Source of the DNA: Kordiimonas laminariae
GTDB taxonomy: Bacteria > Pseudomonadota > Alphaproteobacteria > Sphingomonadales > Kordiimonadaceae
Length of the DNA: 64,000 nt
Assembly: GCF_023008165.1 (NCBI RefSeq)
Contig: NZ_JAKQZA010000002.1
Span: 434,001 to 498,000, forward strand
Reading direction: 5' to 3'
A program made the translations under genes and the position numbers. This document shows, piece after piece, positions 60,659 through 61,532 of this stretch. The notes beneath the pieces were generated by a model. That model saw nothing but the letters and a program-made list of their open reading frames with translations. It searched no databases and had not been told where the DNA came from. The first letter of the stretch is position 1. Every line of letters begins with the position of its first letter.

Positions 60659-60836
60659 AGTTGCCCCCTCGCCCAATTTCCCAATTCCAAATTTATATAT
60701 TCAGACTGCTACACCGTAACATTAGAGAAAAGAGGCATTAAATAAAGAATCTGTCAGAGCACATGGTAACTCCACAAATAGTATCAAAAATACAACATCA
60801 ACACTTCATTATGTACTAAATCGAACAAAAACTAAT

Positions 60837-60897
60837 AAGTTGTATTGATACACTAAATAAAAGATGCATGATTATTTTTGCACGAAAAATACAACTT
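60837..60897. promoter_or_regulatory. Inverted repeat upstream of the first small peptide gene
   Basis: AAGTTGTAT (60837-60845) and ATACAACTT (60889-60897) are perfect 9-base arms about 43 bases apart. A third copy of ATACAAC lies at 60790-60796. The right arm ends just before the GGGGAG ribosome site (60898-60903) of the first peptide gene, so a regulator bound there, or an RNA stem, could control its expression. Confidence 0.45.
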
Positions 60898-60910
60898 GGG
60901 GAGACATATC

Positions 60911-61141
60911 ATGTCTATTGAAGCATTATCATTCGAGCAAACCACTCAGGTATTTGGCGGTAGCGGCCGCACTGCTGAGGACCCACTATTCAGCAGCCCT
61001 CCGGCCGGTTTTGTAGCAACTGGTTTATTCGACTGTAACGGTAGTACCCGTTTTCAGATTTACATCAATCTAGACACTTTTGAGACGGTTTGTGTTTTTG
61101 AAGGCACCGGTTGCTCCGGCGGCCCGCACATAGGCCTCTAA
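60911..61141 (+). CDS. Double-glycine-leader peptide precursor 1
   Basis: 76 residues from ATG 60911, with GGGGAG upstream. The N terminus (MSIEALSFEQTTQVFGG) fits the double-glycine leader pattern: L at -12, S at -11, Q at -8, V at -4 and GG at -2/-1. Cleavage after GG would leave 59 residues, with three cysteines (the first two 18 residues apart), a hydrophobic middle, and a glycine-rich tail. It is a paralogue of the next gene: the leaders share 14 of 17 residues. No modifying enzyme or C39-peptidase transporter lies beside it, so export route and modification are unknown. Family unrecognised; the leader pattern is the main evidence. Confidence 0.78.
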   Translation: MSIEALSFEQTTQVFGGSGRTAEDPLFSSPPAGFVATGLFDCNGSTRFQIYINLDTFETVCVFEGTGCSGGPHIGL

Positions 61142-61231
61142 TAATTAAACGGGGAAAACCAATACAGTTTCCTGCGTTTCATCACGAAAATAGGGTCAAC
61201 TATTCTTCAACCACAATCAAGGGGACACGCT

Positions 61232-61471
61232 ATGTCTATTGAAACACTATCGTTCGAACAAACTGATCTGGTATTTGGCGGTGATGGCACCTCAGCCGAT
61301 AATCCGCTATACAGCACCGCGCCTTCTGGTTTTATTGCTACGGGCGCTTTCCAATGCCTCAATGGCCAAAGATCACAATTCTTTTTCAACCCTACAACAC
61401 AGGAAGTTATCTGTGTCGCGGCAGGTGGCTGTGATGGTAGCCACGGGCCAATCCTCGAAGGTGGGTTTTAA
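61232..61471 (+). CDS. Double-glycine-leader peptide precursor 2
   Basis: 79 residues, 90 bases after precursor 1, with its own GGGGACACGCT site. The leader MSIETLSFEQTDLVFGG has the same pattern, and the core (62 residues) again has three cysteines, the first pair 18 residues apart as in precursor 1. Shared core residues include PL, GF, ATG and FxC, about 13 of the first 25 positions, falling to 6 of the next 19, so the leader and first half are better conserved than the second. A tandem duplication and divergence fits. Confidence 0.78.
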   Translation: MSIETLSFEQTDLVFGGDGTSADNPLYSTAPSGFIATGAFQCLNGQRSQFFFNPTTQEVICVAAGGCDGSHGPILEGGF

Positions 61472-61481
61472 CCTATAAAAA

Positions 61482-61511
61482 AGGCGGGGACCATATCATA
61501 GGTTCCCGCCT
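61482..61511 (-). terminator. Terminator of the aminotransferase gene
   Basis: Arms AGGCGGGGACC and GGTTCCCGCCT (one G-T pair) around an 8-base loop. Read on the minus strand the hairpin is followed by TTTTTT, so it ends the leftward aminotransferase transcript. On the plus strand no T-run follows, but the stem may still slow the peptide transcript. Confidence 0.82.
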
Positions 61512-61532
61512 CCTGAATTCAGCTATGACTGC

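Follow-up and report, generated by a model that had tools for sequence, protein, structure and literature searches.

A tandem pair of small genes without a linked exporter

The window, the whole 64,000-nucleotide stretch of Kordiimonas DNA that was analysed (C20:434001-498000), belongs to a 3.65-Mb genome in 27 contigs. Between the genes for a beta-propeller amidohydrolase and an aminotransferase it carries two small genes, pepA and pepB, both preceded by a GGGGA-type ribosome site (Table 1). The leaders of their products agree at 14 of 17 residues, the aligned cores at 27 of 58. Three cysteines are present in each core, with 18 residues between the first and the second in both, and a PL...GF.ATG.F.C segment is kept in the two of them. 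An earlier sequence-only reading had pointed out the two open reading frames, the likeness of the leaders, the three-cysteine cores, their spacing and the common segment, and all of these were confirmed at the coordinates given here. We read pepA and pepB as a tandem pair of paralogous double-glycine precursor genes with no linked exporter.

Table 1. Features of the pepA/pepB locus, in window coordinates
Feature	Coordinates	Strand	Description
Divergent upstream region, amidohydrolase to pepA	60677..60910	.	AT-rich, 33% GC; candidate promoter/operator
Three AATACAAC copies upstream of pepA	60787..60897	60789 +, 60839 -, 60888 +	two direct, one inverted
pepA	60911..61141	+	76-aa precursor; ATG 60911, stop 61141
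pepA leader	residues 1-17		MSIEALSFEQTTQVFGG
pepA core			59 aa; 6.16 kDa reduced (unmodified mass 6158.8 Da); pI 4.3; Cys at 25, 44, 51
pepA-pepB spacer	61142..61231	+	90 bp; holds second ribosome-binding site (AAGGGGAC)
pepB	61232..61471	+	79-aa precursor, pepA paralogue; ATG 61232, stop 61471
pepB leader	residues 1-17		MSIETLSFEQTDLVFGG
pepB core			62 aa; 6.33 kDa reduced (unmodified mass 6328.9 Da); pI 4.1; Cys at 25, 44, 50
GC-rich inverted repeat GGCGGGGACC...GGTTCCCGCC	61484..61512	.	between convergent pepB and aminotransferase genes; terminator-like by eye

A terminator scan listed none, the 61484..61512 repeat included, and Rfam gave no match anywhere in the window. No immunity gene was found beside pepA/pepB, nor any small membrane protein between or beside the neighbours, and the pair has neither a sensor nor a regulator next to it.

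AlphaFold was run with two sequences. Mean pLDDT was 55.7 and 59.8, with a three-stranded beta arrangement of low confidence for both, and a Foldseek search of the predicted structures against the PDB returned no E-value lower than 2.7. Therefore we make no claim of fold; according to the models, the acidic cores are probably beta-rich. When the two cores were compared, no GxxxGxxxG motif common to both was found.

Purifying selection and restricted distribution

The same locus is found at the same place in a sister Kordiimonas species (G013), which is 95.6% identical to the window over 12 kb. Eight substitutions separate the two versions of pepA and pepB: all eight lie at third codon positions and all eight are synonymous (p = 1.8e-4 for the latter, if substitutions of these types are scattered randomly). 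Divergence in 250-bp bins falls to 0.8-2.4% over the two genes and their upstream region, against about 4.5% in the flanks. Because all substitutions are synonymous and divergence is locally lowered, pepA and pepB are real genes under purifying selection at the protein level.

The pair is present in 2 of 20 Kordiimonas genomes. In G002 the flanking genes are neighbours about 600 bp apart, and a pair-like open reading frame is missing between them; pepA/pepB is thus an accessory gene pair inside a conserved neighbourhood. This also bears on the amidohydrolase, which shares the upstream region and had been thought capable of acting on peptides. A functional link finds no support and was rejected: close orthologues of the enzyme occur in Kordiimonas genomes devoid of the pair, and in G002 the two flanking genes adjoin each other without a peptide gene in between.

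The sequence-only reading had suggested looking for further copies in databases and relatives, and the copy in the sister species was the outcome. Viral contigs, GTDB genome contigs, plasmids and phages contained no homologues outside the two Kordiimonas species, and none was found in 385 alphaproteobacteria sampled across the class or in other relatives. Weak matches were discarded, as they fell in unrelated long frames (one in G013 within a 426-aa open reading frame) or ran across stops. Similarly, neither precursors nor cores matched a curated family in Pfam, NCBIfam, PHROGs or PDB sequences. The pepA/pepB family and its alphaproteobacterial setting appear to be new in the collections searched; the orphan arrangement itself is known in kind, with a precedent in pneumococcus (PMC7018657).

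The leaders resemble those of C39-exported peptides

C39 domains bind leader positions -15, -12, -7 and -4, which matter little to some exporters (PMC7018657). Both leaders of the pair carry Ile at -15, Leu at -12, Thr at -7, Val at -4 and GG at -2/-1. They are atypical in having Thr at -7 for a hydrophobic residue and Glu at -9 in place of -8. A first, stricter regular expression missed even exporter-linked precursors and was replaced. We built a leader matrix from 67 GG/GA leaders near C39 transporters, taken from 62 named contigs and Kordiimonas with the pair left out, and ranked 953 Shine-Dalgarno-preceded open reading frames from Kordiimonas DNA at a distance from C39 genes. The two leaders came first and second with 16.1 and 15.1 bits, the third-ranking frame scoring 9.5, and among 20,000 shuffled N-termini 1 and 7 reached these two scores, respectively. 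The earlier reading of the pair as of secreted-peptide type, with double-glycine leaders, is supported.

The double-glycine leader could nevertheless be a coincidence and the products small cytoplasmic or otherwise targeted proteins. This would fit the departures at -7 and -8/-9, the unlinked exporter and the behaviour of a leader profile from which the pair had been left out, as this profile did not list it at E 0.1 in a whole-genome search. Against it, GG and the leader pattern were kept in both copies while the rest diverged, and the matrix ranks and the shuffles leave little room for chance. In addition, the precursor directly behind the transporter of the same genome (IEEINSEDTTSVSGG) is identical to pepA (IEALSFEQTTQVFGG) at 8 of 15 positions and has the same departures, E at -9 and T at -7. 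We hold a coincidental leader to be quite improbable. The T at -7 also recurs in a precursor on contig C22 that is described below (IQELKYDETNLVAGG, 7 of 15 positions identical to pepB).

A single exporter and scattered precursors

As the sequence-only reading stated, the window itself has no C39 transporter. C39 was matched exactly once in the genome, by an intact protein of 739 aa on another contig, C21 (E 9e-37). Pfam recognises the C39, ABC membrane and ATPase domains in this C39/ABC protein, which is preceded by an HlyD protein. Both partners expected elsewhere in the genome were thus found, and the proposed orphan, trans-processed arrangement is supported by a single C39/HlyD exporter unlinked to the pair. 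In G013, assembled as a single contig, about 572 kb separate the exporter from the pair.

Four small precursor open reading frames, with leaders of the GG, GA or AG type, and one CPBP (PF02517, immunity-type) gene lie around the exporter on C21. Comparison with G013 showed that the HlyD-C39 part is 96-97% identical, while the precursor and CPBP block behind it has been replaced in G013, in part by a glycine-zipper-like precursor. The resident cargo of the exporter has turned over and the distant pair has stayed identical in protein sequence. Beside the intact copy in G013, the beginning of the C39 gene region and a precursor next to it are partly duplicated in tandem (L098 11217-11631), which suggests a route to expansion of precursor arrays.

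A leader profile also recovered two more orphan precursors in the genome of the window. One, with a GG/GA leader, at C24:159010 (MSGQIQELTFDEIDSVTGA), is directly followed by the gene of a CPBP membrane protein (PF02517, E 1.6e-8), and the 3 kb covered there hold no exporter; judged by its gene content, this locus (L180 1498-2262, C24 about 159007-159771) appears to combine a peptide with its own immunity gene in a self-contained unit. The other, with a GG leader, at C22:129925 (MIIQELKYDETNLVAGG, followed by CPLDL...; L182 1498-1728, C22 about 129922-130152), lies upstream of an rpsD-like gene, with a methyl-accepting chemotaxis-like gene on the other side. Two more orphan leader precursors were found in G013. 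Among 30 genomes of the family, short-frame leader matches were found in 12 of the 14 that have C39 and in none of the 16 that lack it (p about 1e-6), most of them adjoining the transporter. For orphan precursors alone the counts were 3 of 14 C39 genomes (one a fragmented assembly) and 0 of 16, which is not significant (p = 0.09). The overall picture looks like one exporter serving dispersed precursors.

We also compared the regions upstream of pepA and hlyD, which have AATAAGTTGT (inverted) and CACTAAATAA in common. Seven 9-mers are common to both against 1.7 expected, a value reached in 15 of 1000 shuffles, in a post hoc comparison of AT-rich DNA. These words hint, weakly, at a possible co-regulation of pepAB and hlyD.

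From the leaders and the gene content, we consider it likely that the C21 C39/HlyD system cleaves and exports both cores in trans. The C39 peptidase domain would recognise the 17-residue leaders and cut after GG, and the cores would leave through the transporter, its HlyD partner and a TolC-type pore.

Modification of the cores by an unlinked enzyme before export, which would make the pair RiPP precursors, was also considered. G013 has a second C39 locus (L099 8662-17211) that also encodes HlyD, a radical SAM enzyme, a MacB/FtsX-type permease and a protein bearing an HExxH-like motif; by this composition it is probably a RiPP cluster. The existence of this cluster in the sister species and the Ser/Thr/Cys content of the cores are in favour of modification. 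However, the cluster is absent from the genome of the window, which has only one C39, and no modifying enzyme was recognised at the C21 exporter locus. Searches of the same genome for YcaO (PF02624) and LanC-like (PF05147) domains gave no match, a result that counts against these two kinds of RiPP only. Altogether we regard a modified product as very unlikely. In another Kordiimonas genome (G019), a C39 contig carries two precursors with the common core DGSLTFCS beside an ATP-grasp-like gene (L107 1115-3310), possibly a graspetide-type cluster to judge from these genes.

Relation to known systems and possible role

Class II microcins, which have a five-component definition, are exported by a CvaAB/TolC-type system in Enterobacterales (PMC9746304). 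Like them, the pair consists of short precursors with GG/GA-type leaders and cores below 10 kDa, in a Gram-negative host whose genome encodes a C39 ABC transporter and an HlyD partner. It differs in its alphaproteobacterial host, its paired paralogues, its unlinked exporter, the missing adjacent immunity gene and the lack of any detected relation to a curated family. On sequence grounds the pair behaves like a double-glycine exported peptide. Since a nearby immunity gene was looked for and not found and no sequence relation to a known family was detected, we do not count it among the class II microcins.

The Caulobacter Cdz system (CdzC/CdzD with CdzAB) is likewise alphaproteobacterial; its two small precursors have leaders of the bacteriocin type and leave the cell through a type I system (PMC5380434). 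For the pair, export in trans is predicted. The Cdz genes are clustered together with the immunity gene CdzI, and the cores are glycine zippers (PMC5380434), whereas PepA and PepB have three cysteines and an unlinked exporter. Assignment to the Cdz type was rejected, as the pair has no common glycine zipper. The closest parallel in arrangement is pneumococcal: 'orphan' double-glycine peptides have no closely associated transporter, and ComAB and BlpAB jointly serve a pool of precursors (PMC7018657), as proposed here. Pneumococcus is Gram-positive and its export was shown experimentally (PMC7018657); that of the pair is predicted.

Once released, the 59- and 62-residue acidic cores may fold as small three-stranded beta domains, in which three cysteines would permit one internal disulfide and a spare thiol possibly linking PepA to PepB. 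As the most tentative step, PepA and PepB together could act outside the cell as a two-component, bacteriocin- or microcin-like antagonist. With C39-exported class II microcins and the Cdz peptides as models, such antagonism is the likeliest single function, at a little short of an even chance. The acidity of the cores, as most bacteriocins are cationic, and the missing immunity gene beside the pair speak against it.

Alternatively, the same export route might deliver secreted signals or surface or matrix proteins with no antibacterial action. Double-glycine peptides serve signalling and biofilm roles besides competition (PMC7018657), no immunity gene adjoins the pair, its cores are acidic, and its protein sequence is fully conserved in two species as opposed to the turnover of the precursor block 3′ of the exporter. 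Competition is nevertheless the better fit for tandem paralogues with a conserved leader and a divergent core and for the CPBP genes that accompany precursors at two further loci of the same genome, and no sensor or regulator adjoins pepA/pepB. We rate a signal or surface role as less likely than antagonism.

More speculatively, and with a low probability in our estimate, the single Kordiimonas C39/HlyD exporter, serving the four precursors of its own locus, the pair and the two orphans, would constitute a mix-and-match arsenal, in which the pair founds a novel family of two-peptide antagonists with three cysteines and a beta sheet, perhaps joined by a disulfide.

Implications for the search of secreted peptides

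Mining for double-glycine peptides usually looks beside an exporter; a 2003 survey, as far as it is described in PMC9746304, searched next to it. The genome of the window has precursors with no exporter beside them and offers a test case in one organism, where a single transporter stands against eight or more candidate precursors spread over four contigs. Should export in trans prove true, proximity-based surveys would undercount the secreted peptides of Alphaproteobacteria, and the pair would represent a new peptide scaffold.
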